From NCBI GenBank assembly GCA_017302455.1, contig JAFLDO010000047.1, positions 1 through 33,180 on the forward strand: a stretch of 33,180 nucleotides of DNA, given 5' to 3'. Positions 4,567-33,176 of the stretch are shown in pieces; within the stretch, counting starts at the first letter, position 1, and the number at the start of each line of letters is the position of its first letter. A program made the translations under genes and the position numbers. Source of the stretch: Accumulibacter sp. GTDB lineage: Bacteria > Pseudomonadota > Gammaproteobacteria > Burkholderiales > Rhodocyclaceae. The notes beneath the pieces were generated by a model. It saw only the letters and a list, made by a program, of their open reading frames with translations. It ran no database searches and was not told where the DNA came from.

Positions 4567-6290
4567 AGCTTAGCTTTCTCCCGGATAAAGCTGTTCATCC
4601 GCTCCGCCAGTGCGACCCGGCGCTGTTGCAGGAAGTCGCGATAACACGCCGTGGCCCAGAGCTCAGGGTCGGTGGGCACACACTGACTGGTCAGCGCCTC
4701 CGCGCCCTGCTTGTCGACGATGGTGGCCAGGTAAGCGCTCGCTTCCTTGTTGCTGATGCGCCGGTTCGTCTGACCCGTGATGAAGGCCATGTTGGCGATT
4801 TCATTGATTTCGCCGGTCTCGTAGCCCTGCGCCTTGAGCAGGGACTTCGGGATGATGTGATGCCACTGGATGAAATGGAGCTTGCCCTGGTGGGTCAGCG
4901 ACAACCCTAGGCCGCTGTACCAGTCCTTGGCACCCGAGGCCTTCAACGCCAAGTAAGCTAGCGAGAACAGCGGGCTATTCACCCCGCGGCCCGCCAGGTC
5001 GCCCGGCTCAACATGCAGGCGGCCGAACTGGCGCTTGACCGGCTCCATCAGCTTGCCGATGTCCTGGTCGCGGAAAACGATGGCCAGGTCCTCGTTCAGC
5101 AGGGTTTCCGTCGAACCCCGCGAATAGCGACCGCGCGCGTTGGCCACCAGCAGCCAGTGCAACAGCTTGTTCTGCTCATCGGCGGTGAGTTTGTTGTCCG
5201 TTACCCGGCTCACGGCCGCGAGCGTATGGATGAACATCGGTGAGGACAGCAGGGATTCGTCCTCAATGCCGACGTTGGTGCGCAGGAAGTTGATGGCAAA
5301 GCGCAGTCCTTCTTTGGCCTGCTCCCAACCCACCTTGAGCTTGTCCACCGGCGTGCTCGCCACCGAACGGAACAGGCACTGCTGCGTGGCGAAGACGACG
5401 ATGGCCCGCACCAGGTGGCCCAGCTCAATCGTGAACCAGCTCTGCTCGCACTCCTCCTGGAAAGCCTCGAGTTCCTTCAGCAGGTTCGGCCAGCGCGAGG
5501 TCATCTGCGCCAGCGCCAAGTCGGACGAGCGCAGCTTTGCACCGAGCGAATTCACCCGCACGAAGATTTCTGTGACCTCTTCGTAGCTCATGGCGCGTTC
5601 AAGAACATGAACCACGTATTGGTAGTTCTTGATGGCGCGCAGCTTCTTCAGGCGGTCGGAATACTTCTGGTAACGCGGGTCGTCGAGGTCCTTGATGCCC
5701 GCCTTCTTTAATATATCGGTGTCGTTTGCCGTGCCGAAAACATGGCTCACCGACACCCAGTTGGGTTGCGACAGCAGGTTCTTGCTCGCGACCACGAAGG
5801 TGCGGCGATTGAGCTTTTCCTGCAGGCCCTGCTCGACCTCGTCGGGCTCTTCCGCCTCGTCGTTCACTTCGTCGTCAGGAGTGAGCGGTGAAGGCTCATC
5901 GGTTTCCACCTCGGTGTCGTCGGTGGGTGGGCCGTCCGGGTGTTCGAGGTTGAACAGGATGTCGATAGGGCGCTTACGACCACGGACCGACACCATCTCT
6001 CCGCCCAGCACGGCGGTCAGTGAAGTCAGCCGTTGCTGGCCGTCGAGCAGCAGCTTGCGGCCGGCAAAAGCATTGGTCTCCTGCGCAATGGCGAAATCCC
6101 GCGTCGGCACCGGCTCGTCGGTCTCCCACATCAGGATGGAGCCGCTGGGGTAGCCGCGGTAGAGCGAATCGAGCAGGTCGCGGACCCGAGTGGCTTGCCA
6201 GACGTAGTGGCGCTGGATTTCCGGCAAGCGCAGCTCGCCGCGCTTGTACATGTCCACCAGGGTGCCGATGGGGATGTTTTGCTGCTGCAT
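4563..6290 (-). CDS. DUF262 / HNH-type GmrSD-like protein within the hsd operon
   Basis: A 575-residue protein with an N-terminal DUF262 (GmrS/ParB-like NTPase) domain: IPIGTLVDMYKRGELRLPEIQR, then LLLDGQQRLTSL, the conserved DGQQR motif. An acidic linker (about 115-150, rich in Asp, Glu and Pro) follows. The C-terminal region carries an HNH-like motif, QWHHIIPKSLL, followed by a conserved Asn in NEIANMAFITGQTNRRIS, as in the DUF1524-type nuclease half of GmrSD. GmrSD enzymes are type IV restriction systems that attack modified DNA. The gene sits two bases after hsdS and overlaps hsdR by four bases, so it is co-translated with the type I system. It could be an autonomous type IV enzyme or an accessory subunit; the sequence does not decide. 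It is full length with its motifs intact. Confidence 0.88.
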   Translation of the reverse strand: MQQQNIPIGTLVDMYKRGELRLPEIQRHYVWQATRVRDLLDSLYRGYPSGSILMWETDEPVPTRDFAIAQETNAFAGRKLLLDGQQRLTSLTAVLGGEMVSVRGRKRPIDILFNLEHPDGPPTDDTEVETDEPSPLTPDDEVNDEAEEPDEVEQGLQEKLNRRTFVVASKNLLSQPNWVSVSHVFGTANDTDILKKAGIKDLDDPRYQKYSDRLKKLRAIKNYQYVVHVLERAMSYEEVTEIFVRVNSLGAKLRSSDLALAQMTSRWPNLLKELEAFQEECEQSWFTIELGHLVRAIVVFATQQCLFRSVASTPVDKLKVGWEQAKEGLRFAINFLRTNVGIEDESLLSSPMFIHTLAAVSRVTDNKLTADEQNKLLHWLLVANARGRYSRGSTETLLNEDLAIVFRDQDIGKLMEPVKRQFGRLHVEPGDLAGRGVNSPLFSLAYLALKASGAKDWYSGLGLSLTHQGKLHFIQWHHIIPKSLLKAQGYETGEINEIANMAFITGQTNRRISNKEASAYLATIVDKQGAEALTSQCVPTDPELWATACYRDFLQQRRVALAERMNSFIREKAKL

Positions 6291-6292
6291 GC

Positions 6293-7477
6293 TCAGAGTT
6301 CTCCCCGGAAAGCTCGAGACTGAAGGGCAGCGAAAAGTGCGCCAAACTCCTCAAGAGCTCGTCGGTGCACTACTTTATTCGCTATCACGGTTTCGACATG
6401 CTTTGCGTATTGGGATTGAAGCTCCAACGGCGGTTGCGGGATTTTCATGGCTTGGACTTCAGTGGCATTGATGTTTGCCATACCGATAATGCTTTTGCAC
6501 ATGCTACGCAGAGTACGCTTTGCATAGGACGTGTTCATGAATCCAGCCAGGTACTCGGGGTCGTTAGCCGCGTTAATGCGTAGACGAATCAGATAACCCG
6601 CATAAGCCATTGGCTCCGACCTACGGTAGATGGCTGTTTTCCCGACCAAGTCAGCACTGTTTGTGCGATTGAAGAGGACATCGCCCTGCCTCACCAGATA
6701 GCGCTCGTGCTGACTTTCATCGAGGTCCATGTACTTAAGGTCAACAAAGTCCATTTCGCCGGACCGAGTAATGTTGTTCATTCGCAGCACCGGAAACTTA
6801 CCGTCAGCGGATGACTTTTCACTTGTCCCGTATGAGGCTGAGGCCAGTAAGTCGCCGACGGCACGTACTGGCCATTTTTTGGTGTTCGTTGCAGGGTCTC
6901 CGAACATCTCGATGAAAATCCCCCGCTGCAGCTCATCCAGCAGCGCCAAGGCTTCCCGCCGCTTGGCACGAAGCGCATCGGCTTGGTCAAGGATGGCGGC
7001 GATGCGGCGTTGTTCTGAGAGTGAGAGAAGTGGAATTTTGAGCTCCCCAATTTGGGTTAGGCTCAAATTTTGTATCGTGCCGGTAACTGTCGCTCCGCGC
7101 ATTTGCTTTTGCGCATCCTCGCCCTCCAGCCAATGACGAAGAAAAGGGCGATAGATTTTTTCTGACGTACGGAGAATGGCTACTGCTTGATTGCAATTTA
7201 GTGGAGGTGCGTTTTCAGGGACGACGCCAGTACGCCCAATGCTGCCTGCAATGGATAGCAGGACATCTCCTGGAAGAATTTGAGAGCGCTTTAACAATTG
7301 ATGGACCTGGCCATCGATGAACAGCGTGTCCTTTTCAAAATTTACAACGCCACCAGAAATGTTCTGAACTCGCAGAAAGCCGACACCCTCGTCAGCAAAG
7401 TCAAATCCGATGGAGGTTGGCGTGGTTCCCTTTGTGATTAGTTCACAAAGGTCTTTTAGTGGAACTCTCGTTGCCAT
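6293..7477 (-). CDS. hsdS: Type I restriction-modification specificity subunit
   Basis: The DNA-recognition subunit, 394 residues from the ATG at 7477. It has the usual two half-subunits. The first target recognition domain starts at about residue 2 (RVPLKDLCELITKGTTP). It is followed by the conserved helical spacer LSEQRRIAAILDQADALRAK. The second domain begins around WPVRAVGDLLASASYGTSEKS, and a second helical region closes the protein. The ATG shares one base with the hsdM stop (TGATG), and this decides the start over an in-frame TTG one codon upstream. Base composition is lower in GC inside the recognition domains than in hsdM and hsdR, as is usual for these rapidly exchanged segments. 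The recognised DNA sequence cannot be predicted by eye. Confidence 0.93.
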   Translation of the reverse strand: MATRVPLKDLCELITKGTTPTSIGFDFADEGVGFLRVQNISGGVVNFEKDTLFIDGQVHQLLKRSQILPGDVLLSIAGSIGRTGVVPENAPPLNCNQAVAILRTSEKIYRPFLRHWLEGEDAQKQMRGATVTGTIQNLSLTQIGELKIPLLSLSEQRRIAAILDQADALRAKRREALALLDELQRGIFIEMFGDPATNTKKWPVRAVGDLLASASYGTSEKSSADGKFPVLRMNNITRSGEMDFVDLKYMDLDESQHERYLVRQGDVLFNRTNSADLVGKTAIYRRSEPMAYAGYLIRLRINAANDPEYLAGFMNTSYAKRTLRSMCKSIIGMANINATEVQAMKIPQPPLELQSQYAKHVETVIANKVVHRRALEEFGALFAALQSRAFRGEL

Positions 7478-9015
7478 CAAGACAACATCCCCTCAAGCGC
7501 TTTCATCCCCTCCTGAATCTCCTCCTCCAGCTTGACCAGCTTGGCCAGAATCTCCTTCGGTGGCAGGTGCTCCACCGTTTCATGCACCACTTCCTTGTAG
7601 CGGTTGATGGAGAGGTCATAGCCCTGGGCAGCAATGTCGGCCTTGGGCACACAGAAACTCTGCTCGGTACGCGAGCGCTGTCGTTCGTCCCCGTTCCGCT
7701 GCTGCCAGCGCGCCAGCACATCCGGCAGGTTGTTCTTGACGTGCTCTGCCTCCGAGAGCGGTTGCAGCGGAGCCACGCCGAGCTTGTCTTCCGCCAACAG
7801 AGGCTGACGCTTGTCGTCCAGACTCCAGCCGTCGCCCTGCATGTCGTAGAACCAGACCTGGTCGGTGCCGCCCGAATTGGTCTTGGTAAAAATCAGAATC
7901 GCTGTCGACACGCCGGCATAGGGCTTGAAGCAGCCCGAGGGCAGCGAGAGGACTGCATCGAGCTTCTGCTCCTCGACAATCATCCGGCGCAGTTCCTTGT
8001 GCGCCTTGCTGGAGCCGAACAGCACGCCGTCCGGCACGATGACCGCCGCGCGCCCGCCGGGCTTCAAGAGTCGCAGGAAGAGTGCGAGGAACAGCAGCTC
8101 GGTCTTCTTCGTTTTGACCAGCGCCAGCAGGTCTTTGGCGGTGTTCTCGTAGTCCAGCGACCCCGCGAAAGGCGGATTGGCGAGGATGAGGGAGTACTTC
8201 TCCTCGTCGCCGGCGTGGTCCTGCGCCAGCGAATCCTTGTAGCGGATGTCCGGGTTATCGACGCCGTGGAGCGCCATGTTCATGCTGCCGATGCGCAACA
8301 TGGTGTTGTCGAAGTCGTAGCCGTGGAACATGCCGTGGTGGAAGTGCTCACGGGCCGTAGCATCGTTGAACAGCGCCGGATGCTTCTCGCGCAGGTATTC
8401 CCCCGCTGCCACCAGGAAGCCGCAGGTGCCGCTGGCTGGGTCGCAAATGACGTCCTTGGGCGTGGGCCCGGTGAGCTCCACCATCAGCTTGATGATGTGA
8501 CGCGGCGTGCGGAACTGACCGTTCTGACCGGCGGCGGCAATCTTGCCGAGCATGTACTCGTAGAGGTCGCCCTTGGTGTCGCGGTCCTCCATCGGTACGT
8601 GGTCGAGCATGTCCACCACCTTGGCCAGGAGGCCGGCGGTCGGGATGGTGAAGCGTGCGTCCTTCATGTGGTGACTGTAGGTCGAGCCATCGCCGCCACG
8701 GGTGCGCAGGAAGGGGAAAACGTGCTCGCCCACCACCTCGAACATCTCGGCCGGCGCGAAGTTCTTGAACCGCGACCAGCGAAGGTCATCGTAGGCCCGC
8801 CCCTTGGGGTCCGTGCCTTCGGGGAAGATGCGGTTCGCCATCGGCCGCCTGAGGAGCGTCGCCTTGCTCTCCTCCAGGGTGTGCGCGTCATCCAGCCGGC
8901 GGATGAAGAGCAGGTAGGTAATCTGCTCCAGCACCTCCATCGGGTTCGAAATCCCACCCGACCAGAAGGCGTTCCATACGGCGTCGATTTGGCTACGAAG
9001 TTCGCCAGTCAGCAT
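7477..9015 (-). CDS. hsdM: Type I restriction-modification DNA methyltransferase subunit
   Basis: An N6-adenine methyltransferase, 512 residues. It combines an N-terminal HsdM helical domain (LRSQIDAVWNAFWSGGI, then LEQITYLLFIRRLDD) with a Rossmann methylase domain. The S-adenosylmethionine motif DPASGTCGF is at about residues 192-200 and the catalytic NPPF motif at about 280-283. I place the start at MLTGELRSQ (9015) because AGGAA lies just upstream and homologues begin there; the open frame extends 21 codons further without support. It is the first gene of the operon and directly overlaps hsdS. Together with HsdS it would form the modification enzyme protecting host DNA. Confidence 0.95.
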   Translation of the reverse strand: MLTGELRSQIDAVWNAFWSGGISNPMEVLEQITYLLFIRRLDDAHTLEESKATLLRRPMANRIFPEGTDPKGRAYDDLRWSRFKNFAPAEMFEVVGEHVFPFLRTRGGDGSTYSHHMKDARFTIPTAGLLAKVVDMLDHVPMEDRDTKGDLYEYMLGKIAAAGQNGQFRTPRHIIKLMVELTGPTPKDVICDPASGTCGFLVAAGEYLREKHPALFNDATAREHFHHGMFHGYDFDNTMLRIGSMNMALHGVDNPDIRYKDSLAQDHAGDEEKYSLILANPPFAGSLDYENTAKDLLALVKTKKTELLFLALFLRLLKPGGRAAVIVPDGVLFGSSKAHKELRRMIVEEQKLDAVLSLPSGCFKPYAGVSTAILIFTKTNSGGTDQVWFYDMQGDGWSLDDKRQPLLAEDKLGVAPLQPLSEAEHVKNNLPDVLARWQQRNGDERQRSRTEQSFCVPKADIAAQGYDLSINRYKEVVHETVEHLPPKEILAKLVKLEEEIQEGMKALEGMLS

Positions 9016-9081
9016 TGAATCATTCCTGTGTTTCCTGTCCTGCGGCCTGTTCTCTGCCGCATGGCGGACGCATTGCAAGCG

Positions 9082-9258: not shown

Positions 9259-10353
9259 TCATGGGGTTTTCTGCTCACTGGCCGGCGGTGCAGCTTGGGG
9301 CGACTGCCACCTGACCAACTCCACCGTGAGGTGCGACTCCGTGAGTTCGTATGCGGAGATGCGCACCTTTTCCGGCACGTCCTCACGCTGCAAGCGCGCC
9401 AGAGCCTGTTTTAGCCGACGCCGGAACTCCCGAAGTTCGCAGACGACCCCACTCCAAAGGAACACATCGGTGACTTTCAAAGGATATGGTTTGGCATGAG
9501 AGCTGTAGTAGCTCGCCAGCCACGCAGGCAGCCCTGAGTAGTCATGCAGCGCCGCGTCAGTCACCGCGCTCCAGTCTTCCGGCCCAAAGAGGCGGGCCAT
9601 GGAGTCCAGAACGCGAAAGGAAATCAGGTCGCTTCCCTTGAGCGCGCGCGCGTCGGTGTCTCGGCCCTGGTAGCCGTCGTCGAAGACGGCATCGAGCAAA
9701 CGAGGCATCGGGATGTCGACCCGTTTCACCCGGATGCGCAAGTGGGCAGCGTTGAGCCGAATCAGGCTGTCGCGAATGGCCCGGTGCGTATTGGCGCTGT
9801 AGGTGACGTTCAAGTCCCGCACCAGCTGCCAGAAAGTCACTTTGACCCAGCGCAGCTCGCTCCCCGGACAGAGCGGCCGGTCGTCGCGATAGTAGTTGAG
9901 GCAGGCTGCAAAGACCCGGCGGTCGTAATCGCCCAGCGGATGGCCCGTTAGGGTGAGGGACATGTCGCCCTGCACCCCTATCTCCACGTTCATTAGCGGT
10001 TTGTCGGTGACCTCGGCGGCGCTGAACAAGGAGGAGCGCAGGAAGGCGTTCGGAAGGCCCACCGTCGCTTCGCGCCAGGTGGGGAGATACACATCCTCGC
10101 CCCGACGCACCGCCCGCTGCTGCCTGGCCTGCCGGACCTCGGTGACGGAGGCGTTGTCGGGTAACACGAGCACAGGCTCCTTCTCGGCCGCCATCCGTCT
10201 CAGCTGGCTGCGCGCGACCGATTCGAGCGTCGCGGCAGCCGCACAGGCGAGGTCCTGGGTCAGGCAGTCCGGCGCCGACTCCGAAGCCCGCCGTGCGGCT
10301 GCGGCCTGAGCGTGGAGCTCGGCAATCTGCTCAGCGCTGCGGCGCATGGCCAT
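9259..10353 (-). CDS. trfA: TrfA-like plasmid replication initiator
   Basis: A protein of 364 residues resembling TrfA, the iteron-binding initiator of IncP plasmids such as RK2. The family signature is clear towards the C-terminus: YYSSHAKPYPLKVTDVF, with a following helix (ELREFRRRLKQALARLQRE), matches the conserved YFSSHREPYPLK segment of TrfA. The middle also follows the pattern of two winged-helix domains (VTFWQLVRDLNVTYS; IRDSLIRLNAAHLRI). The start MAMRRSAEQIAELHAQ is chosen because GGAG lies six bases upstream; Met codons at 10380 and 10434 have no such site. The gene overlaps the small ribbon-helix-helix gene upstream by about 23 bases, and iterons lie beyond that, as expected for an autoregulated plasmid replicon. 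It is intact, so this island may have replicated, or still replicate, outside the chromosome. Confidence 0.85.
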   Translation of the reverse strand: MAMRRSAEQIAELHAQAAAARRASESAPDCLTQDLACAAAATLESVARSQLRRMAAEKEPVLVLPDNASVTEVRQARQQRAVRRGEDVYLPTWREATVGLPNAFLRSSLFSAAEVTDKPLMNVEIGVQGDMSLTLTGHPLGDYDRRVFAACLNYYRDDRPLCPGSELRWVKVTFWQLVRDLNVTYSANTHRAIRDSLIRLNAAHLRIRVKRVDIPMPRLLDAVFDDGYQGRDTDARALKGSDLISFRVLDSMARLFGPEDWSAVTDAALHDYSGLPAWLASYYSSHAKPYPLKVTDVFLWSGVVCELREFRRRLKQALARLQREDVPEKVRISAYELTESHLTVELVRWQSPQAAPPASEQKTP

Positions 10354-10534
10354 GCTGGGCTCCGGCTGCACGTTGAACATACGCGGCCAGGAGCCCGCGA
10401 AGGACCACCGACGCGCACACGCCTTGCACCGCACAAAGTGATGCGAATTCGTTCTTCAGGTCTTCCGGCAACCAGATTTTCATCTGCACCGAGCCCGCGC
10501 GCTGCCGGCCGGATTTTTCGGTTTTTATTTTCAA
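10331..10534 (-). CDS. Small ribbon-helix-helix (CopG/Arc-like) DNA-binding protein
   Basis: A small frame whose product contains MKIWLPEDLKNEFASLCAVQ followed by GVCASVVLRGLLAAYV, the beta strand plus two helices of a ribbon-helix-helix protein. It ends in a short Gln/His tail that overlaps the trfA start. Two starts are possible. A TTG at 10534 has GGAGAAG just upstream (67 residues) and is used here; the ATG at 10483 gives 50 residues and has no good ribosome site. Such small regulators commonly precede plasmid initiators and control copy number or initiator expression, and that role is inferred here. The overlap suggests translational coupling to trfA. Confidence 0.6.
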   Translation of the reverse strand: MKIKTEKSGRQRAGSVQMKIWLPEDLKNEFASLCAVQGVCASVVLRGLLAAYVQRAAGAQHGHAPQR

Positions 10535-10631: not shown

Positions 10632-10719
10632 CTTGGCCTCAAAACACGCTTTACTTGGCGTCGAAACACACGGCACTTGGCGTGGCCCCACATTTCGCTT
10701 GGCGTCAAAACACGCTCTT
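10632..10719. repeat. Four iterons at exact 22-bp spacing (candidate oriV/operator)
   Basis: Direct repeats begin at 10632, 10654, 10676 and 10698, each 22 bases apart, with a 17-bp core close to CTTGGCGTCAAAACACG. Copies 1, 2 and 4 match well; copy 3 is degenerate after CTTGGCGT. A partial fifth copy (TTTGGCCTC) starts at 10718. A spacing of two helical turns is the hallmark of initiator-binding iterons; RK2 iterons are likewise 17-bp units spaced about 22 bp. They lie upstream of the ribbon-helix-helix/trfA pair and so could be the replication origin, an autoregulatory operator, or both. Confidence 0.82.
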
Positions 10720-11537: not shown

Positions 11538-11831
11538 TCAGCGTTCCTCTCGCCTCACGTCCAACGCAAAGCGCATGGCTTGCAGGCACGCCAGCAGAAA
11601 ACCCGCGTTGAAGTTTCCACGGTTGATGCGCCGGTTGATGACGGCCGCGCTGCGTTTGATACCCAGCGGCTTCAACGCTTCCGAAAGCTCGCTGTAACCC
11701 CAGCCGCGCTCGCGCATCGCGCGCTTGAGCACGACGCTCGCCTGCAGCCCCCACATCTCGGTGGCCACGGATTCACTTCTCGTGGCCTCTGGCCGCACCC
11801 CCACCGAAATCCGCCTGCCTGGCTTGTTCAT
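11538..11831 (-). CDS. DUF6471-type small protein, HTH-like
   Basis: A 97-residue protein. The central part, LKRAMRERGWGYSELSEALKPLGI followed by INRRINRGNFNAGFLLACLQAM, resembles DUF6471 family proteins, which look like a short Cro/C1-type helix-turn-helix fold. It would be a DNA-binding regulator. The ATG at 11831 has GGGAG seven bases upstream, supporting this start. It is divergent from the transposition operon starting at 11947, so its promoter region is shared with tnsAB and it may regulate that operon; this is inferred from position only. The family name comes from memory of its pattern and was not searched. Confidence 0.65.
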   Translation of the reverse strand: MNKPGRRISVGVRPEATRSESVATEMWGLQASVVLKRAMRERGWGYSELSEALKPLGIKRSAAVINRRINRGNFNAGFLLACLQAMRFALDVRREER

Positions 11832-11946: not shown

Positions 11947-14652
11947 ATGCTTGAAACACCCCAGCGGGAGCGCCTGCTCGACCGCCTTGGGCTCCCGAGC
12001 GCCGGAAGGCGTCCCATTCTTGACGCGGCCAAGTACGCCCCTGTGCGCAAGGTCGAGTCGAAGGGCGGCGGTAACGTCCTTACGCCCTATCAAAGCCTGA
12101 AAATGCAGCGGACCGTGGAAACGGAAAGCCGCCATCTTGAGTTCCCGGCCGCTGTCAGCCACGAACATGACCCGACGGTGCTGGAGTACTTCCCGCAGCC
12201 CTGCCGTTTGAAGTTCGAACTGGTGGACGCCGACGGAGAAATCCATGCTGTCGACCACACGCCGGACTTTCTCGTCATTACCGAACGAGGGGTCTGGCTG
12301 GAGGAGTGGAAGCACTGGCGAAAGCTTGAAAACCTCGCTCGCCGCTCTCCCTGGCGGTATCAGCTCGACCTAGATGGGCGCTGGTGCGCCCCCGGCATCG
12401 AGCAGTGGCTCGCCGACCGTGGCATCGGTTACCGCATCCGCACGGACCGCGACATTCCCCAACGACGCATCGAGAACACGCTGTTCCTCGAAGACTATCT
12501 GGCCCCTGGGGCGCCGCCTTGCCCAATCGATGTCGCCCTGAAGGTGCGTGATGCGCTGGAGCGTGACGCCACCCTGTACCTGGCGGAGCTTTACGAAACC
12601 GTTGAGTGCCGTCCGGACGACATCTTCAAGCTGATTGCCGACGGCCTCGTGGTGGCCGAAGTCGATGATGCGTCGCTGAGCGAACCAACCCGCTGCCGCG
12701 TGTTTCGCGATACGGCGGTCCGCGATTTCGAACGGATGCGCTCACTCCCACCCCCGTTCTCGCTTCGGGGCACGCTCGACATCACCGTTGGCGCACGACT
12801 CACGTACGACCAGCTGCCTTACACGGTCATCATGGTCGGAGGCTCGAAGGTCGTTCTGCAATCCGACGACAAGCGGTCGGTCGAAGTCTCGTTGGAAACG
12901 CTCGAATCGCTCGCCCTGCAACAGGACGTCGTGATGGCCGATGGGTCGGTGCCGACTTCGGCCCCTGTTCGCCTGTCGGACTTCACCGAAGCCGAGTTAC
13001 GGGCGGCACTGGAGCGCCGAACCGCGCTCGAGCAGGTCACCAGACCCAACCGGAGTCAGCGCCGTCATTTGAAGGCTCTGGCCATTGCAAAGCTGAGCGG
13101 AACGGATGAACTCGTTGCACTCATCCCACAACTGGGGCAGCGCGGAAACCGGACCCCGCGCTTGAGCGCCGAGCAGGAGGACGCGCTGGAACAGGTCATC
13201 CGCGAGGCGTATCTGATTTCAAGCGCCCCCAATGCCAAACACTGCTACCTCAAGCTGAAGACGCTGTGTGCCAGCCGCGGTATCAAGGCGCCGTCCTACC
13301 CGACGCTGATTAAGCGCATCAAGGCGAAGTCGCCGAAGGAGTCCGACTTGGCACGCCACGGCAAGCGCGTGGCCTACCAGAATGCGGAGTTCGTACCCGT
13401 CCTGTATATCGACACACCGGTACACGGTTCGCGTGCGTTCCAGTACGTGCACATGGACCACACCGAGCTCGACATCGAGCTCGTATCGCTGAAAACCGGG
13501 AAGGTGCTTGGGCGTCCGTGGCTGTCATTGGCGATTGACGCCTTTACGCGTCGAATTGTCGGCCTCTATCTGTCGTACGACCCGCCGTCGTACCGCTCGA
13601 ACATGATGCTGCTGCGGGACATTGTCCGACGCTATCGGCGTTTGCCGCAGTTCATCGTCGTTGATAACGGTGCTGACTTCCGCAGCGAGGATTTCAAGCG
13701 CTTCACCGAACTGATGCGCATCCATGTCCGGTATCGCCCATCGGGCCAGCCGCGTCACGGCGCAGTCATGGAACGCATCTTCGGCCGCACCCATACCGAG
13801 TACGTGCATAACCTTGCCGGCGACACGAAGGCGCTGAAGGAAGTCCGCAAAACGACTGGGAAGTTTCTCCCCTCGCGCTTGGCGGAATGGACGCTCTCCT
13901 ACTTGTACTACGGCCTCGAGTACTGGGCTTTCACCTATTACGACACAGCAGAGCACTCAACACTGGGGCTGAGCCCGCGCGAAGCCTTCGAGCGGAGCGT
14001 GGCCACGTCGGGGCTTCGGGCACATCGGGTCGTCACACTGACCCAGGACTTCCTCATCCTGACGTGCCCGACGGTCGGACGGACAGGAAGGCGTTCGGTC
14101 GACCGGCAGCGTGGCGTCAAGGTGCACAACAACTATCGGTATTGGTGCCCCGAACTGCGGGACCCACAGCTCCATGGTCAGAAGGTGCCGACCCGTTACG
14201 ACCCATGGGACGCCTCGACAGTGTATGTGCAGGTCAACAAGCACTGGGTGCCTGCTCAATGCAAGGTGCTCGCGGGGCTTGGTCAGCTCACGGAAAAAGA
14301 GCGCGAACTCATTTCCGACGAAATGCGAAATCGCTTCCGCATCTCGGAAAACGAGGAGCTCACCCTGCAACGGGTAGCCGAGTTCATGCGCATCTTCACC
14401 CCTCAGGGCGCCATGGAACTGGCGCTCGAGCGACAGCATGAAAACCGCGAGTTGTACCGGGACCTCGGGATGGGGGCTATCTCCCCAACCAGCTCGGTGC
14501 CGCTGTTGCCTGCCGTCGCCCCTCAACCGCCCCAAAAACAGGCGGTAGCAAAGACCGCCGTCGTCGCGGTTGCGCTGCCACCGCCCGTTCAGACCGCCGA
14601 GTCAGCTGCTGACCTCGCGTACTCCGACCTCCCCGATTTCGACACCTTTTGA
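11947..14652 (+). CDS. tnsAB: TnsA-TnsB fusion transposase of a Tn7-like element
   Basis: A 901-residue protein that joins both strand-cutting activities of Tn7-type transposition. Residues about 50-200 are TnsA-like: Glu65 in SRHLEF, Asp107 in HTPDFLV and Glu120-x-Lys122 in WLEEWK form the PD-(D/E)xK nuclease that cuts the 5' ends. The rest is TnsB/Mu/TniA-like. An HTH region (about 340-460) precedes an RNase H-fold DDE domain with Asp504 (MDHTELD), Asp573 (VVDNGADF) and Glu609 (GAVMERIF), the last two 35 residues apart as in retroviral-type integrases. A Mu-C-type beta-barrel and a Pro/Ala-rich tail follow; the tail probably contacts the ATPase. The ATG at 11947 is preceded by GGAG. All catalytic residues are present, so cut-and-paste transposition is predicted. 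The next gene starts 14 bases on. Confidence 0.88.
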   Translation: MLETPQRERLLDRLGLPSAGRRPILDAAKYAPVRKVESKGGGNVLTPYQSLKMQRTVETESRHLEFPAAVSHEHDPTVLEYFPQPCRLKFELVDADGEIHAVDHTPDFLVITERGVWLEEWKHWRKLENLARRSPWRYQLDLDGRWCAPGIEQWLADRGIGYRIRTDRDIPQRRIENTLFLEDYLAPGAPPCPIDVALKVRDALERDATLYLAELYETVECRPDDIFKLIADGLVVAEVDDASLSEPTRCRVFRDTAVRDFERMRSLPPPFSLRGTLDITVGARLTYDQLPYTVIMVGGSKVVLQSDDKRSVEVSLETLESLALQQDVVMADGSVPTSAPVRLSDFTEAELRAALERRTALEQVTRPNRSQRRHLKALAIAKLSGTDELVALIPQLGQRGNRTPRLSAEQEDALEQVIREAYLISSAPNAKHCYLKLKTLCASRGIKAPSYPTLIKRIKAKSPKESDLARHGKRVAYQNAEFVPVLYIDTPVHGSRAFQYVHMDHTELDIELVSLKTGKVLGRPWLSLAIDAFTRRIVGLYLSYDPPSYRSNMMLLRDIVRRYRRLPQFIVVDNGADFRSEDFKRFTELMRIHVRYRPSGQPRHGAVMERIFGRTHTEYVHNLAGDTKALKEVRKTTGKFLPSRLAEWTLSYLYYGLEYWAFTYYDTAEHSTLGLSPREAFERSVATSGLRAHRVVTLTQDFLILTCPTVGRTGRRSVDRQRGVKVHNNYRYWCPELRDPQLHGQKVPTRYDPWDASTVYVQVNKHWVPAQCKVLAGLGQLTEKERELISDEMRNRFRISENEELTLQRVAEFMRIFTPQGAMELALERQHENRELYRDLGMGAISPTSSVPLLPAVAPQPPQKQAVAKTAVVAVALPPPVQTAESAADLAYSDLPDFDTF

Positions 14653-14666
14653 GCTTTACCTTGAAC

Positions 14667-15686
14667 ATGAACACCCACATCTCTAACAGCCAACCGGCGC
14701 TCAACGCCCCGAACATCCGCGGCCAACGTATCCGCCATACCCGCATTGCCTCCACCATCGACGAGTGTCGCCTCATGCTCGCCGCGGGCGATAACGCAAA
14801 CCTACTTCTCCTGTGTGGCCCAACAGGGGTCGGCAAAAGCACCCTGGGCGATTTCCTTGTCGAGTCGGAACTCAAGGACCAAGCGGCAGTGCTGTCCGCG
14901 AATCCGGGCTACGTTCCGGCCATTCGTGTCGAGGCTCCCTCCTCCGGTGAGCGCGACTTCTCATGGCGTCTGTTCTATCAACGCATGCTCGATGCACTCG
15001 AGGGCGAGCTCGACGCCCCGCGAACGGCATACGGCATCGACCCGGTAACGGGGAAGGTTGTACGTCCGGTCGGTCCGCAAACCAACCGCCTCTCAGGCTT
15101 GCGCACGGCCGTGGAGCGTTCGCTGCGTAATCGCGGCACGCGTATCGTCGTTGTCGATGAGGCGGCACACATGATGCGTCAGTGTCATCCCAGCCGCCTC
15201 GTCGAACAGTTCAACACGCTGAAATCGCTTTCGAACGAGTCCCATGTGCAGTGGATTCTGCTGGGGTCCTACGACCTTTTCGAGCTCGTCTCGCTGAGCG
15301 CCCAACTTGCTCGCCGCACCCACGTCATCCATTTCGGCCGGTATCGGGAAGATAACGATGAGGACGTCCGAGCCTTTCGCGGTTGCCTGAAAAAATTCGC
15401 GGACGGGTTGCCAGCCTTGAAGGACCTCGACCTGCTGCAATACGCCGACGCATTCCAGCAGAACACGCTGGGATGCGTGGGAACGCTGCGTACCGTGCTC
15501 GTGCGCCTCAACCTTCTGGTCGCTGAAAAGGGCTGGTCGGAAGACGTGCTGTGCAAAGCGTTGCTGACCGAGGCACAGACCGACCAAATCCTGCGAGAAA
15601 TCGTGGAGGGCGAGGAGCGCATTGCGCCGGGGCTCAAGCGCAATCTGGCCGTGCAACAGCCCAAGACTGGGCGGAGGGTTGCGTGA
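14667..15686 (+). CDS. tnsC: TnsC/TniB-type AAA+ ATPase
   Basis: The ATP-dependent regulator that links target recognition to the transposase, 339 residues. Walker A is LLLCGPTGVGKSTL, Walker B is RIVVVDEAAHM and a sensor-like motif is WILLGSYDLFEL. This order fits the TnsC/TniB family rather than IstB or MuB. I take the ATG at 14667 (MNTHISNSQ); an in-frame TTG at 14649 overlapping the tnsAB stop would add six residues, and neither start has a strong ribosome site. The gene ends in TGATG shared with tniQ. In this family ATP-bound TnsC oligomerises on target DNA at the site marked by TniQ and recruits TnsB. Confidence 0.88.
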   Translation: MNTHISNSQPALNAPNIRGQRIRHTRIASTIDECRLMLAAGDNANLLLLCGPTGVGKSTLGDFLVESELKDQAAVLSANPGYVPAIRVEAPSSGERDFSWRLFYQRMLDALEGELDAPRTAYGIDPVTGKVVRPVGPQTNRLSGLRTAVERSLRNRGTRIVVVDEAAHMMRQCHPSRLVEQFNTLKSLSNESHVQWILLGSYDLFELVSLSAQLARRTHVIHFGRYREDNDEDVRAFRGCLKKFADGLPALKDLDLLQYADAFQQNTLGCVGTLRTVLVRLNLLVAEKGWSEDVLCKALLTEAQTDQILREIVEGEERIAPGLKRNLAVQQPKTGRRVA

Positions 15687-16963
15687 TGAGCACATTGCAC
15701 AATCCGCGCTCGACGCTGCACGCCCTGGAACCGATGGGCCGCGGCACCCCTGAAGTCGAGAGCCTGACGAGCTATTTCTGTCGTCTCGCCTACTCCCACG
15801 GAATGACAGCGCAAAAGCTGGCTGACTGGGTCGTCGCCCACTTTGAGCAGTCCGTGTGCCAGAAGTACGGCTGGCATCAGCGCAGCTTCTCCAGCATGTC
15901 GCCGGAAAGCGAGCAGTGGGCAGCCTGGCTGGCAGCACTGACCGGCATCGCCTCGCTCGACCAGCACACGCTGGCGCCCTGGCGCGCGGTACTGGGCACT
16001 CCCGGGCTGGCACCGAAATCCGACCGCTGGTGCCCATGCTGCCTGGCCGAGGACAAGGAAACTGGCGACGAGCCTTACCTTCACTTGGCGTGGGATGTCG
16101 CACCCGTCACGGTCTGCTTGCGTCACAAGGTACAGTTGGCAACGACCTGCCCACATTGCCAGCGCACCAATGTTCGGAATCGGTCGGCGGTCGTTGTTCC
16201 GGGCTACTGCACGTCGTGTGGTGGGTTTCTCGGTGATGCCGAAACCGAACCCGCGACCCCGGAAGCCTTGTGGACAGCGCGCCAAGTAGGCCTGATGTTG
16301 CAGGCGGCCCCGAAGGTGGCTCCCACGGGATTGGTTCCTTTGCTGGAAACGGTCATCGAGCGCATGGCAGATGGCCGACCGAGCACATTCGCGAGCCGCT
16401 ACGGCTTCTCGAAGAGTGGCATCTCTCACTGGCTCAACAAGGGCGGGATTCCCACACTGAAGGCGTGGCTGACCATCGCGCTGCACGGAGGCATTGGACT
16501 CGACAAACTTTTCGCCGGCGACATCGAAGGCTGGGAGCCTCCGCTCACGCCTGTTCAGATGTCCATCGAGCTACCCGAGTCCCCGCGTGCAGGCATCAAG
16601 TCGCGGGAGCTGGACTGGGACACCATCCGCGCTCAGTTGCAGGCGCTGCTCCAGGAGCCCGAACCGGTTTCGGTCCATCAAGCTAGCGAACGCCTTGGTG
16701 TCGACCGCAAGAACCTGTACCTGCGCGCCAACATCGAGACCCGTGCCCTTGCCGACCGCTACCAGCGCCACCGCGCGTCGGTCGGCGCACAGCGCCAAGC
16801 CCGGCTTCAGGCTCAGATTAGCAACGTCCTCGATGAGCGTCTTGAAGCGGGTTACGAAGGGATGAGCGCACGCGACATCTGGAACCGGCTCGACACCGAG
16901 GCTCAGTCGGTGCCCGGCATCTTCCATCACATCAGCCAAGTCATAGACTCTCGGCGGACCTGA
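15686..16963 (+). CDS. tniQ: TniQ/TnsD-type target selector
   Basis: A 425-residue protein with the TniQ layout. The N-terminus ESLTSYFCRLAYSHGM matches the family start. Zinc-binding clusters follow: CPCC at 116-119, then CLRHKVQL, CPHC and CTSC. The C-terminal half (about 225-425) has two helix-turn-helix-like stretches, FASRYGFSKSGISHWLNKGG and VHQASERLGVDRKNLYLRAN, and a basic helical end. TniQ proteins of this length behave like TnsD, binding a fixed chromosomal site and recruiting TnsC. The nearest conserved gene is tRNA-Ala, 224 bp away, which is the obvious candidate target. The start ATG shares one base with the tnsC stop and has GGAGGG upstream. A strong terminator follows the stop. 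Confidence 0.88.
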   Translation: MSTLHNPRSTLHALEPMGRGTPEVESLTSYFCRLAYSHGMTAQKLADWVVAHFEQSVCQKYGWHQRSFSSMSPESEQWAAWLAALTGIASLDQHTLAPWRAVLGTPGLAPKSDRWCPCCLAEDKETGDEPYLHLAWDVAPVTVCLRHKVQLATTCPHCQRTNVRNRSAVVVPGYCTSCGGFLGDAETEPATPEALWTARQVGLMLQAAPKVAPTGLVPLLETVIERMADGRPSTFASRYGFSKSGISHWLNKGGIPTLKAWLTIALHGGIGLDKLFAGDIEGWEPPLTPVQMSIELPESPRAGIKSRELDWDTIRAQLQALLQEPEPVSVHQASERLGVDRKNLYLRANIETRALADRYQRHRASVGAQRQARLQAQISNVLDERLEAGYEGMSARDIWNRLDTEAQSVPGIFHHISQVIDSRRT

Positions 16964-16990
16964 CCCACACAAAACCACCGCCGAAAATGA

Positions 16991-17017
16991 AAACGGGACC
17001 GAACGGTCCCGTTTTTT
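16991..17017 (+). terminator. Intrinsic terminator of the tnsAB-tnsC-tniQ operon
   Basis: A perfect 10-bp stem, AAACGGGACC (16991-17000) with GGTCCCGTTT (17005-17014) around a GAAC loop, runs into a run of T residues. It lies 28 bases after the tniQ stop and ends the rightward transcript. Confidence 0.9.
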
Positions 17018-17091
17018 TCAACCTACATTCCGAGCGGCGCTAGCCTGCACGGACAGCAAAGCCAGCAAGCCTACTATGCGCAACCGAATAA

Positions 17092-17174
17092 ACCAAAATG
17101 TGGCCCATCGGGAAATAAAGCATAAAGTGTCCGCGTGGCCACTTTATGCTTAACGGCACAACTGAGAACAGTTG
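17092..17174. repeat. Inverted-repeat cluster between tniQ and tRNA-Ala (candidate element end)
   Basis: Two hairpins are visible. AAGCATAAAGTG (17118-17129) pairs with CACTTTATGCTT (17140-17151) around 10 bases, and CAACTG (17159-17164) pairs with CAGTTG (17169-17174). In addition ACCAAAAT (17092-17099) is the inverse of ATTTTGGT (17183-17190), which includes the tRNA CCA end. This is where the transposon or island end should lie. The long repeat could be a pair of transposase-binding sites. Read on the minus strand it is followed by TTTATTT and could instead be the tRNA terminator. The rest of 16964-17186 holds the operon terminator and nothing else I recognise. Confidence 0.45.
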
Positions 17175-17186
17175 GGCGCTGAATTT

Positions 17187-17262
17187 TGGTGGACCGAAGG
17201 AGGATCGAACTCCCGACCTCTGCATTGCGAACGCAGCGCTCTCCCAGCTGAGCTATCGGCCC
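17187..17262 (-). tRNA. tRNA-Ala (anticodon CGC)
   Basis: A 76-base cloverleaf with encoded CCA. The acceptor GGGCCGA pairs with TCGGTCC (one G-T pair), the D arm is GCTC/GAGC and the anticodon stem is CTGCG/TGCAG. The loop TTCGCAA gives anticodon CGC, which reads GCG. The T arm contains TTCGATC. It lies 52 bases after the tsaC stop on the same strand and may be read from that operon or from its own promoter. Its 3' side faces the transposition module, as expected for an integration target. Confidence 0.96.
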
Positions 17263-17314: not shown

Positions 17315-18367
17315 TCAGGTTTCGTCGTCCTCCGCGCCCGATCCGACGGCGGCACGGCCCAGGCGGTCGGCGACAGCGCGCCAGTCCGGGCCAGCCGGCA
17401 GGTTCTCGATGAGGATGAAATCGGCATCGAGCGCGTCCATCGCTCGCAGGCTGGCGTAGAGTTCCTGCGCGTAGGCGGCGGGGTCGGACGGCATGCACTG
17501 CCAGATAAGGCGGGAGTCCTGCGGGTTGGGCGCTGCATGCGCGAGCACGGCGACACGACTTCCCTCCCCTGCCAAGGCCGTGGCCTCGGCGGCGAGCAGC
17601 GCAGGCTCGATCAGCCGCAGCGGAGTGCGTGGCGCGTAATGGGCCGCGAGCGCGCCCGACACACGTGGAGCAACTGCCGTCTGCGCAGACGCCACCGCTT
17701 CGGCTTCGCCGCGCACGCGCGGCCGGCGGCCGATGACGCGAGCGATGTCTTCGGGCGTGATCGCGCCCGGACGCAGGATCTCCGGCACGTCGCGCGAGAA
17801 GTCGAGGATGGTCGATTCGATACCGACTGCGCAGGCGCCGCCATCGACGATCATCGCCACGCGTTCGCCGAGTTCTTCCTGCACGTGCGTGGCGGTGGTC
17901 GGGCTGATGCGGCCGAATCGGTTGGCGCTGGGTGCGGCGATACCCGAGTCGAAGACCTGCAGCATGGCCAGCGCGATGGAATGCGAGGGTACGCGCAAGC
18001 CCACGGTGTCCTGGCCGCCGGTGACTTCGTCGGGTACGTCCGCCGTGCGCTTGAGGATCAGCGTCAGCGGACCGGGCCAGAAGGCGCGGGCCAGCGCGAT
18101 GGCGTCCTTGGGAATGCTGGCGGCCCAGCGCGGCAGGTGGTCGGCCGAGGGCAGATGCACGATCAGCGGATGGTCGGCGGGGCGCCCCTTGGCGGCGAAG
18201 ATCTTCTTCACCGCCAAGGGGTTGAGTGCATCGGCAGCGAGACCGTACACCGTCTCGGTCGGCATGCCGACGATGTCGCCGGCGCGCAAGAGCGCCGCCG
18301 CTTCGTGGATTGCGACCAGCGTGGACGGCTCGATGCGCCCGCGCGGTTTGGCCCCGGCGCTACTCAT
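17315..18367 (-). CDS. tsaC: Threonylcarbamoyl-AMP synthase (Sua5/TsaC)
   Basis: Makes threonylcarbamoyl-AMP from threonine, bicarbonate and ATP, the first step of the t6A37 modification of ANN-decoding tRNAs; cytoplasmic. At 350 residues it is the long Sua5 form. The YrdC domain (about 15-205) contains GMPTETVYGLAADA, KIFAAKGRPADHPLIVH, GLRVPSH and APSANRFGRISPT; the C-terminal Sua5 domain follows a Gly/Ala-containing linker (SGALAAHYAPRTPLRL). The gene starts 10 bases after purK and is last in the folD-purE-purK-tsaC operon. There is no sign of damage despite the nearby island. A short YrdC-only paralogue might exist elsewhere, so the symbol could equally be sua5. Confidence 0.94.
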   Translation of the reverse strand: MSSAGAKPRGRIEPSTLVAIHEAAALLRAGDIVGMPTETVYGLAADALNPLAVKKIFAAKGRPADHPLIVHLPSADHLPRWAASIPKDAIALARAFWPGPLTLILKRTADVPDEVTGGQDTVGLRVPSHSIALAMLQVFDSGIAAPSANRFGRISPTTATHVQEELGERVAMIVDGGACAVGIESTILDFSRDVPEILRPGAITPEDIARVIGRRPRVRGEAEAVASAQTAVAPRVSGALAAHYAPRTPLRLIEPALLAAEATALAGEGSRVAVLAHAAPNPQDSRLIWQCMPSDPAAYAQELYASLRAMDALDADFILIENLPAGPDWRAVADRLGRAAVGSGAEDDET

Positions 18368-18377
18368 CGGCGCGCGC

Positions 18378-19532
18378 TCATTCGTCCCGGATGCCGATCA
18401 CAGCCCGGGCCTGCATGGCGCGCTCGAGGACCACGGCTGCGTCATCGCCGACGACCGTGAAGTGGCCCATCTTGCGCCCCGGACGGGCGTGATGCTTACC
18501 ATACAGATGCAGGCTGAGCCCCGGCACCGCATGCAGCAGCGACCAGTCCGGCTCGCGATAGACACCGTTGGCCTGGCCGCCCTCGTACCACAGCTCGCCG
18601 AGCAGGTTGACCATTACCGCTGCCGAGTGCTGGCGCGGCATGGCGAGCGGCAGGCCGCACAGCGCCCTCACCTGCTGCTGGTACTGGCTGACGTCGCAGG
18701 CGTCGATGGTGTGGTGGCCGCTGTTGTGCGGTCGCGGCGCCATCTCGTTGACGAACAACTCGCCGCGGCAGACGAAGAACTCCACCCCCAACGTGCCGAT
18801 GTAGCCGAGCCGTTCGGCGATGCGTTCGGCGATTTCCTGCGCGCTGTCGCGCAAACAGGCCGAGGCGCGCGCCGGGGCGATGGTCACGTCGAGGATGCCG
18901 TTGCGGTGCTGGTTCTCGCCGGTCGGGAAGGTGCGCACTACGCCCGCTTCGTCGCGCGCGAGGACGACCGAGACTTCGTAGTCGAGCGCCAGCATCTTCT
19001 CCAGCACGCAGGGCTCACCCTTGAACTGGTGGAAGGCGGCAAGCGCCTCGTCGCGGTCGGCGACGCGAGCCTGGCCCTTGCCGTCGTAGCCGAAGCGGGC
19101 GACCTTCAGGATCGCCGGGAAAAGGCCGGCGTTGGCATTGCGGATGTCGTCCTCACTGCGGATCGCGGCAAACGGGCCGTGCGGCAAGCCGTTGTCGGCG
19201 AGGAAGGTCTTCTCGGCGATGCGGTTCTGGCACACGCCGACCGCGGCGGCGGACGGATGCACCGGTATGAACTTGCTCAGGTAGTCGAGCGTGTCGGCCG
19301 GCACATTCTCGAACTCGGTGGTCACCGCGGCACATTCGTTGCCCAGCGTATCGAGCGCGACGTAGTCGTCGTAGCCCGCCACCAGGTGACGGTCGGCGAT
19401 CAGCCCGGCCGGGCTGTGCGGATCGGGGTCGAGCACCCACACCTTGTAGCCCATCTCGTGGGCCGCGGAAACGAAGAAGCGGCCGAGCTGGCCGCCGCCG
19501 AGCATCCCGAGGGTGGCAGGAGGCAGAATCAT
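18378..19532 (-). CDS. purK: N5-carboxyaminoimidazole ribonucleotide synthase
   Basis: Carboxylates AIR at the expense of ATP to give N5-CAIR in purine synthesis. The 384-residue protein shows the ATP-grasp fold. An N-terminal pre-ATP-grasp domain begins LPPATLGMLGGGQLGRFF. The central ATP-binding part holds PAILKVARFGYDGKGQ and VLEKMLALDYEVSVV, and a conserved end contains GVEFFVCRGELFVNEMAPRPHNSGH, with the metal-binding Glu and Asn residues. The length is typical. It starts 11 bases after purE; the two enzymes act consecutively. Confidence 0.96.
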   Translation of the reverse strand: MILPPATLGMLGGGQLGRFFVSAAHEMGYKVWVLDPDPHSPAGLIADRHLVAGYDDYVALDTLGNECAAVTTEFENVPADTLDYLSKFIPVHPSAAAVGVCQNRIAEKTFLADNGLPHGPFAAIRSEDDIRNANAGLFPAILKVARFGYDGKGQARVADRDEALAAFHQFKGEPCVLEKMLALDYEVSVVLARDEAGVVRTFPTGENQHRNGILDVTIAPARASACLRDSAQEIAERIAERLGYIGTLGVEFFVCRGELFVNEMAPRPHNSGHHTIDACDVSQYQQQVRALCGLPLAMPRQHSAAVMVNLLGELWYEGGQANGVYREPDWSLLHAVPGLSLHLYGKHHARPGRKMGHFTVVGDDAAVVLERAMQARAVIGIRDE

Positions 19533-19543
19533 CGTGGTCGCTC

Positions 19544-20035
19544 TCAGTCCAGCTTCATGTCCAGCACTGCCTGCGTCTGGCGGGCACGGAAGGCCTCGAG
19601 CCTGTCGGCCAGCGCGGCGTCTTCATTGGCGAGCAGCGCCACCGCGAACAGCCCCGCGTTGGCGGCGCCCGCCTCGCCGATGGCGAAGGTGGCGACCGGG
19701 ATGCCCTTGGGCATCTGCACGATCGATAGAAGCGAATCCTGTCCGGACAGCGCCTTCGACTGCACTGGCACGCCAAGCACCGGCAGCGTGGTCTTGGCCG
19801 CGACCATGCCCGGCAGATGGGCCGCTCCGCCGGCGCCGGCGATGATGGCCTTGAGGCCACGGCCGCGAGCGGACGCTGCATATTCGAACATCAGGTCGGG
19901 CGTACGGTGGGCGGAGACGACCCTCGCCTCGTAGGGAACGCCGAACTCTTCCAGCATCGTCGCTGCAGCGCGCATTGTCGGCCAGTCCGAGTTCGAGCCC
20001 ATGATGATGCCGATGACCGGTTTGCTTTCGCTCAT
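19544..20035 (-). CDS. purE: N5-CAIR mutase, class I PurE
   Basis: Converts N5-CAIR, the product of PurK, to CAIR. The 163-residue protein starts [16 protein letters not shown] and carries the conserved SAHRTPD and the [13 protein letters not shown] loop followed by [18 protein letters not shown], all typical of the octameric class I enzyme. The start at 20035 lies 9 bases after folD. Pairing with an adjacent purK fits the bacterial two-step route. Confidence 0.97.
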
Positions 20036-33059: not shown

Positions 33060-33176
33060 AGTCTGACGATGACCTACTTTCACGAGGGCGGACCTCACTA
33101 TCATCGGCGCGGTCTTGTTTCACGGCCCTGTTCGGGATGGGAAGGGGTGGTACCAAGACGCTATGGTCGTCAGACT
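33060..33176 (-). rRNA. rrf: 5S ribosomal RNA
   Basis: The minus strand contains the conserved 5S blocks GACGACCATAGCG, CACCCCTTCCCATCCCGAAC, GCGCCGATGATAGTG and GTGAAAGTAGGTCATCGTC, in order. The two ends (AGTCTGACGACC and GGTCATCGTCAGACT) pair to form helix I, which sets the approximate ends (117 bases). The 23S and 16S genes should lie to the right of the window. The sequence looks betaproteobacterial. Confidence 0.95.

Follow-up and report, generated by a model that had tools for sequence, protein, structure and literature searches.

A Tn7-like transposon with defence cargo beside tRNA-Ala(CGC), and the RNA genes occupied by its relatives

The 33,180-nucleotide stretch analysed here (the window; Accumulibacter sp., GenBank assembly GCA_017302455.1, contig JAFLDO010000047.1, forward strand) carries a TnsAB-TnsC-TniQ transposition module that stops next to a tRNA gene. 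The locus raises the question of whether the module was delivered to that gene by homing and, if so, which part of the machinery reads the target. Judged by comparative sequence analysis, the window very probably contains the right portion of a Tn7-like transposon that moves by cut and paste, carries a restriction system as defence cargo and homes to tRNA-Ala(CGC). A first-pass annotation, made from the letters alone, had proposed a tRNA-Ala-targeting Tn7-like element. Homing was borne out, with 13 loci at tRNA-Ala(CGC); the restriction to tRNA-Ala was not, as the wider family also occupies tRNA-Val(CAC), tRNA-Ser(TGA), tRNA(CAT) and transfer-messenger RNA (tmRNA) genes.

Transposition genes and right end of the element

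The features on which the argument rests are the following.

11947-14652, + strand: tnsAB, TnsA nuclease and TnsB DDE transposase in one open reading frame (ORF), 901 amino acids (aa) from ATG (Pfam, alignment, PDB)
14649-15686, + strand: tnsC, AAA+ regulator, 345 aa, TTG start (Pfam, motifs, PDB)
15683-16963, + strand: tniQ, TnsD-type target selector, 426 aa, C-terminal part from about residue 310 (Pfam, PDB, structure model)
17091-17105 (+), 17118-17132 (+) and 17137-17151 (-): three repeats of AAGCATNNNNTGGCC type resembling TnsB sites (pattern scan; putative TnsB binding)
17149-17160, no strand: right end of the element, ...CTTAACGGCACA, terminus at 17160 (...GGCACA)
17161-17165, no strand: right copy of the expected target-site duplication, ACTGA, predicted from relatives; left copy absent from the assembly
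17187-17262, - strand: tRNA-Ala(CGC), attachment gene (ARAGORN, Rfam)

The three ORFs are intact, as first annotated, and overlap by 4 bases at both the tnsAB/tnsC and the tnsC/tniQ junction. Pfam matched AAA_22 and TniB in TnsC, the TniQ domain in TniQ, and Mu-transpos_C and HTH_Tnp_Mu_2 in TnsAB. The TnsA N-domain (23.4 bits, cut-off 26.5) and rve (29.8, cut-off 32.6) of TnsAB both scored just below cut-off. The complete nuclease and DDE residues that had been claimed were recovered: D107, E120 and K122, which we take from their motif to be the catalytic PD-ExK residues, and D504, D573 and E609, likewise taken to be the DDE triad, showed no variation across 19 aligned TnsAB. TnsC carries the motifs GPTGVGKS and VVDEA. 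With these two sub-cut-off scores in mind, the gene set is that of a Tn7-like element, i.e. a TnsA-type nuclease with a DDE transposase, a TnsC ATPase and a TniQ/TnsD protein.

The 3' end of the tRNA faces the element, 224 bp from the end of tniQ (17187-16963), the distance given in the first-pass annotation, and 26 bp from the right end. In the window and five relatives, the DNA separating tniQ from the tRNA is conserved up to ...CTTAACGGCACA or a near-match, and diverges beyond. Tn7-like ends have a TGT/ACA terminus and several TnsB-type sites. In the window, such an end was found on the right, with repeats of AAGCATNNNNTGGCC form (at most two mismatches) placed just inside the terminus; left ends of this kind were seen only in L112, G481 and G448 (G, C and L numbers are our handles for genomes, contigs and loci). 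The right-end inverted repeat was also considered as an RNA terminator for the tRNA. This idea was dropped because its inner arm varies among relatives (by eye) as a TnsB site would, and not as a paired stem would.

The end pattern and the predicted junction were searched across genome G000, that of the window. Besides the known right end, the best matches had 2-3 mismatches, which is chance level, and the left end is therefore considered absent from the assembly. Neither a resolvase nor a Cas protein was named among 9 element proteins scanned with Pfam or 10 scanned with PADLOC (six cargo genes, a DUF6471 gene and the three transposition genes), and no CRISPR-like array was found in 20 of 53 direct-repeat families inspected between 6000 and 17400. 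This agrees with the earlier annotation. As the contig starts inside the element, these absences hold for the DNA present. In that part, the cas effector genes and CRISPR array of a CRISPR-associated transposon (CAST) were not seen; nor was the TniR resolvase of Tn5053/Tn402, and the target is an RNA gene, not a res site.

Spacing, empty sites and complete elements in the family

Genome contigs were scanned with the window TniQ, as the first-pass annotation had suggested. Five relatives (66-91% identical) were obtained, all five at tRNA-Ala(CGC) in the same place and orientation; later searches brought this to the 13 loci. A TniQ profile was run on 395 genomes of the family (26 with matches, at least 31 places) and 399 genomes of the order (at least 13 with matches), two genomes being among the matches of both searches. 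At most four candidates were scored per genome and some loci may be missed. The core set was defined as the 25 loci whose TniQ is about 38% or more identical to that of the window over the aligned part, and was thus selected by TniQ, not by tRNA. It comprises the window, L043-L047, G481, G448, G505, G656, G660, G581, G1059, G775, G707, G643, G038, G593, G616, G566, G933, G818, G512, G1104 and Caballeronia L217, the last from a plasmid search. G660, G581, G643, G038, G818 and G512 have tniQ fragments only. The count leaves out a second, inverted copy in G505 and additional fragments in G481 and G656. At L121 (G505, contig C138), two inverted copies of tniQ and tRNA-Ala stand face to face, which may be an assembly palindrome.

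In 23 of the 25 core loci, an intact RNA gene on the opposite strand has its 3' end 26-30 bp from the element end. The genes were tRNA-Ala(CGC) (13), tRNA-Val(CAC) (4), tmRNA (4), tRNA-Ser(TGA) (1) and tRNA(CAT) (1). The G512 end was read by eye at 30 bp from a 3' fragment of tRNA-Ser, and in G1104 the contig stops too early for the right end to be read. All 24 readable loci therefore share the 26-30 bp spacing. In all 24 the tniQ-side end is also the target-proximal one, so that the gene order, first described as unusual, is standard. The spacing script sought a terminal ACA only at 24-31 bp and kept the best fit to CTTAACGGCACA (9-12 of 12 bases, by eye); the same core ends were visible without this limit. 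The probability that a single random insertion fits by chance is of the order of 1e-4, assuming 60 RNA genes, 4.5 Mb and five positions each. Caballeronia L217 was treated as an exception, with no RNA gene near tniQ, until its right end was found 28 bp from tRNA(CAT), with 4.9 kb of other DNA between tniQ and the end. A search of the plasmid collection with right-end DNA matched this Caballeronia place alone.

Similar spacing was seen in more distant relatives (TnsAB 27-37% identical where present). G518a and G443 end 26 bp from tRNA-Val(CAC), several kb past tniQ. At tRNA-Ala(CGC), the spacing is 26 bp in G637b and G912, and G618 and G978 have no clear ACA. At tRNA-Ser it is 26 bp in G917, 25 bp in G953 and 28 bp in G637a, and at tRNA-Arg(CCG) it is 28 bp in G454. 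In G591 a broken frame overlaps tRNA-Ser. By contrast, class-level TniQ relatives, which are distant (L125-L132; 8 regions, 7 genomes), had no tRNA in the stretches examined. In Aromatoleum toluolicum, L051 1260-1560 is a right-end remnant that keeps the tail of tniQ and the spacer as far as the 3' end of the tRNA but lacks the tRNA.

A comparison with sites lacking the insertion, proposed with the first-pass annotation, was made by searching the window flank against 199 genomes of the family. Among the 29 loci obtained (L071-L099), three had a TniQ match; in the other 26, the stretch examined, at most 1.5 kb to either side of the flank match, gave no hit to TnsAB, TnsC or TniQ. Two empty sites match occupied flanks. 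Empty L077 reads CTTTCTCCGGAACATCCCGGACTTGTTCG before the tRNA and occupied L044 is identical directly after its ACA; empty L071 and the flank of occupied L043 show few base differences. L097 / L122 (G425), L097 being one of the 26, has a different end-like repeat before tRNA-Ala(CGC) and no tns match nearby, and is perhaps the remnant of a more distant lineage.

Two relatives are complete. The G481 element measures 23,944 bp with ACATC duplicated on both sides, and the G448 element 40,064 bp with CCTTT on both sides. The predicted 5-bp duplication was thus observed in these two; for the window, the left junction was not found. The joined flanks of G448 form a stem, AAAGCCCGACCT / AGGTCGGGCTTT; the element therefore sits in the loop of a hairpin that resembles a terminator and follows the tRNA. 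In both G481 (L116 12480-15862) and G448 (L119/L120, old right end read by eye), the newer element has a shorter, older one as its immediate left neighbour, so that the same tRNA site was used more than once. The L043 genome also has a left end, L112, which was rejected as the partner of L043 because its flank agrees with neither the L043 duplication nor the empty site G551. Scans for the left ends of L044-L047 gave none that was convincing, with a partial two-site cluster for L047 only.

TniQ and the change of target

When 22 core loci were aligned at the RNA 3' end, the invariant bases were scattered and lay chiefly in the T-loop GTTCGA and the CC.CCA end. The TnsAB tree places the Val elements G775 and G707 within the Ala elements, as sisters of L047 (Ala; 100/100). 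A tree with the Ala elements together was rejected by the approximately unbiased (AU) test (p 0.0029), the Ala group having been defined once the tree was known. L047 is 80-82% identical to G775 and G707 in TnsAB and 58-60% in TniQ, identity being least in the last 46 residues. Against G707, identity is 82% for TnsAB, 77% for TnsC, 58% for TniQ and 36% for TniQ residues 381-426; over the same residues, L047 and the window are 70% identical. On these comparisons, L047 and the Val pair are read as one target switch, in either direction, with a change in TniQ.

For both C-terminal segments of TniQ, 22 of 23 labelled loci share their target with the nearest sequence below 85% identity. Shared descent accounts for part of this correlation. 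In the TniQ trees the tmRNA group is separate; the Val pair is sister to all Ala elements in one tree and groups with L047 in the other, with weak support. Because of this disagreement, the trees do not separate a clean replacement of TniQ in the Val elements from fast divergence, and the replacement was not retained. The correlation of TniQ with target is observed; we infer that TniQ is its cause.

The following course is proposed. The long TniQ would act as TnsD and bind the tRNA gene directly, as the observed near-fixed distance and fixed orientation suggest. Once there, it would recruit the TnsC ATPase, and TnsAB would insert the element with its right end 26-30 bp past the tRNA 3' end, duplicating 5 bp as seen in the two relatives. 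The tRNA is left intact, the element occupying the intergenic or terminator stretch behind it. In relatives, the same machinery is aimed at other tRNA-like genes, with TniQ, chiefly its last ~45 residues, changing with the target. We give about even chances to the broader proposal that a single clade was repeatedly retargeted among Ala(CGC), Val(CAC), Ser(TGA), tRNA(CAT) and tmRNA genes, chiefly through change in TniQ, mainly in its C-terminal ~45-90 residues, with its ends, its spacing, TnsAB and TnsC all retained. The T-loop GTTCGA and the CCA end would be the shared readout and the C-terminus would pick the gene. If true, this would be a natural code for protein-guided insertion, TniQ homing to tmRNA included.

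The family is a natural series, with one machine, ends and spacing common to 23 loci, and different targets. It bears on how TnsD/TniQ proteins read DNA and on how elements switch between safe insertion sites. Since close lineages (TnsAB 80-82% identical) differ in target and in TniQ, they offer paired proteins with which the specificity part could be mapped without CRISPR.

Cargo, alternatives and known systems

The remaining features of the window are listed below.

1159-4566, - strand: hsdR, defence cargo (Pfam, PADLOC, as for the next three)
4563-6290, - strand: GmrSD-N/DUF262-type protein, defence cargo
6293-7480, - strand: hsdS, defence cargo
7477-9078, - strand: hsdM, defence cargo
9259-10434, - strand: TrfA-like replication-initiator gene, cargo (Pfam TrfA, 7.1e-08)
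10632, 10654, 10676 and 10698 (span 10632-10719), no strand: four iteron-like repeats starting CTTGGC, 22-bp spacing
11538-11831, - strand: DUF6471 gene, divergent from tnsAB (Pfam PF20075, 1e-21)
16993-17018, + strand: terminator-like hairpin and T-run 3' of tniQ (by eye; likewise in L043-L047)
17315-18367, 18378-19532 and 19544-20035, all - strand: host genes Sua5/TsaC, purK and purE beyond the target (Pfam)
33061-33174: 5S rRNA gene at the right edge of the window (Rfam)

The iteron-like repeats sit upstream of the trfA-like gene, inside the transposon. A TrfA-like protein 74% identical to that of the window occurs in the G481 element (L115), and one 52% identical in L107, upstream in the L046 genome. 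Of the 14 core loci having sequence upstream of tnsAB, 13 carry the DUF6471 gene at this position and on this strand (Pfam was run on 4 of the 13); in the Caballeronia locus, the remaining one, no match was detected. It is a conserved fourth core gene and a likely regulator of the transposition operon. A second tsaC-purK copy, 71-73% identical, lies on contig C92 of G000, the window contig being C69. The window flank is ~70-77% identical to members of its own genus (longer pieces) and 76-86% to genus group g334 (pieces of at least 338 bases). By this measure the flank fits g334 better, and C69 may lie outside its true bin.

Next to no probability is given to tniQ and the tRNA being ancestral neighbours, or adjacent by chance. 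The same host DNA with tsaC does follow the tRNA in the window, L043 and L044 (L044 by eye), but other DNA is found there in L045, L046 and L047 (by eye). The 26 flank loci without a tns match in the stretch examined, the matching empty sites, the five RNA gene types at one spacing and the 5-bp duplications also speak against it. It is highly improbable that the tRNA is instead the attachment site of another integrating element with a tyrosine integrase, the tns genes being passengers. In favour of such an element, tRNA and tmRNA genes are common integrase sites (for tmRNA, PMC10121019; this and the other PMC papers are cited from excerpts of their texts), and the G512 element ends at a tRNA-Ser 3' fragment. 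The fixed boundary, however, is a TnsB-type end outside the tRNA, the duplications in G481 and G448 stand directly at TGT and ACA, and no integrase was named among the window proteins scanned with Pfam and PADLOC.

Guidance could also come from an RNA, the element being directed by a CRISPR RNA (crRNA) or by a CAST remnant. Type V-K CASTs direct guide RNAs to tRNA genes (PMC11406308), and the left part of the window element is unseen. Yet no Cas was named among the scanned window proteins (a search for cas genes that did not extend to the complete elements in relatives), TniQ is TnsD-like, and target identity mostly tracks TniQ similarity; very little credence is given to this explanation. A role of TniQ as mere bridge, another protein such as DUF6471 reading the tRNA gene as TnsF reads comM in Tn6022, is unlikely. 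A bridging TniQ was proposed for Tn6022 (PMC10293859), and DUF6471 is present in nearly all core loci with upstream DNA. In Caballeronia, however, no DUF6471 was detected and the element still ends 28 bp from the tRNA. Moreover, the 426-aa TniQ has a C-terminal helical extension in its model, its best fold match is a TnsD on DNA with TnsC (at a low TM-score), and its C-terminus tracks the target.

Homing by TniQ is thus preferred, and the following points weigh against it. The left end and duplication of the window element itself are absent from the assembly. The spacing is not constant but ranges from 26 to 30 bp. In the older short G481 element the left end is clipped, and no duplication matches. 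The TniQ C-terminus rule is missed by G038 (1 of the 23 labelled loci). The Caballeronia TniQ, the only one with a tRNA(CAT) target, is most similar to the tmRNA type in residues 1-335 and to the Ser type in its terminal part (44%), yet stands at tRNA(CAT). The TniQ model is middling, with a mean predicted local distance difference test (pLDDT) score of 70.4 and a predicted template modelling (pTM) score of 0.37, and the template modelling (TM) scores of its best fold match are just 0.35/0.33. Among distant relatives, the right end of G470 (TniQ 32% identical) is clear but is not followed by an RNA gene, and G765, G518b, G621, G442, G1146 and G832 have no RNA at a detectable end in the stretch examined. 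These distant loci speak against extending the rule to every TniQ; the core set is not called into question by them.

Homing of TnsAB elements to tRNA genes is already known. TniQ homing to tmRNA, a retargeting series, TniQ with tRNA-Ala and a conserved DUF6471 gene were not found in print by our literature search; Hsieh and Peters 2022, outside its coverage, may list targets. According to the excerpts of PMC10121019, the tmRNA locus of E. coli receives prophages, satellites, mobilizable elements and transposons; TniQ homing is not named there. As the kind of transposon is not given in these excerpts, a claim to the first tmRNA-homing transposon was dropped. In the excerpt of PMC12452197, ssrA is a PCR reference gene.

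For all three transposition proteins, the nearest solved structures belong to a type I-B CAST. The best PDB sequence match of TniQ was TnsD in a TnsD-TnsC-DNA complex (1e-24), and Foldseek returned the same TnsD as best fold match (4.8e-14). TnsAB matched the TnsAB of 9bw1 best by far (8.5e-134), and TnsC matched a PDB TnsC (1.7e-38). Entry 9bw1 shares its TnsC sequence with the type I-B CAST entry 8fcu; we take the matched type I-B entries to be PmcCAST. Against PDB sequences, the fused TnsAB appears closest to the tRNA-homing subfamily that is kin to the CASTs of types I-B2 and I-D.

With Tn5053/Tn402 (TniABQR), the element shares matches to a TniB-like ATPase and the TniQ domain; it differs by a TnsA-type nuclease region, by the lack of a visible resolvase and by a fixed RNA-gene target in place of res sites. 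Tn7 (TnsABCDE, attTn7 at glmS) likewise has TnsA, TnsB and TnsC with a TnsD-type selector, a 5-bp duplication and insertion past the 3' end of a conserved gene. Unlike in Tn7, TnsA and TnsB are fused here, no TnsE was seen, the target is an RNA gene and the operon reads toward the target.

Tn7-like elements inserted downstream of tRNAs have been noted (PMC8649781). Type I-B2 and I-D CASTs derive from the TnsAB-fused subfamily, whose TnsD uses various tRNA genes (PMC11406308). Insertion about 30 bp past the tRNA 3' end, as in that subfamily, was found here with the 26-30 bp of 23 of the 25 core loci, the others being the tRNA fragment and the unreadable end. TnsD proteins bear C-terminal helix-turn-helix (HTH) extensions thought to read the target (PMC10293859). 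The type I-B2 CAST PmcCAST (Tn7744) also has a fused TnsAB, TnsC and a TnsD aimed at a tRNA gene (PMC11406308), and its pTarget carried tRNA-Val (PMC10293859). In contrast to PmcCAST, no CRISPR-Cas or second small TniQ was seen here, and the window family has a divergent DUF6471 gene and uses Ala(CGC), Val(CAC), tmRNA, Ser(TGA) and tRNA(CAT) targets, within the family and order of the window genome. The type I-D CAST CyCAST (Tn7745) likewise has a TnsAB fusion and a TnsD homing to tRNA, with TnsD-mediated insertion 30-33 nt past the tRNA-Leu gene (PMC10293859). It uses a Cascade-linked TniQ and a separate TnsD, whereas the window family has one TniQ and a spacing of 26-30 bp. From the nearest homologues and the published homing of types I-B2 and I-D, the window element would work like the homing half of these systems, without the CRISPR half.

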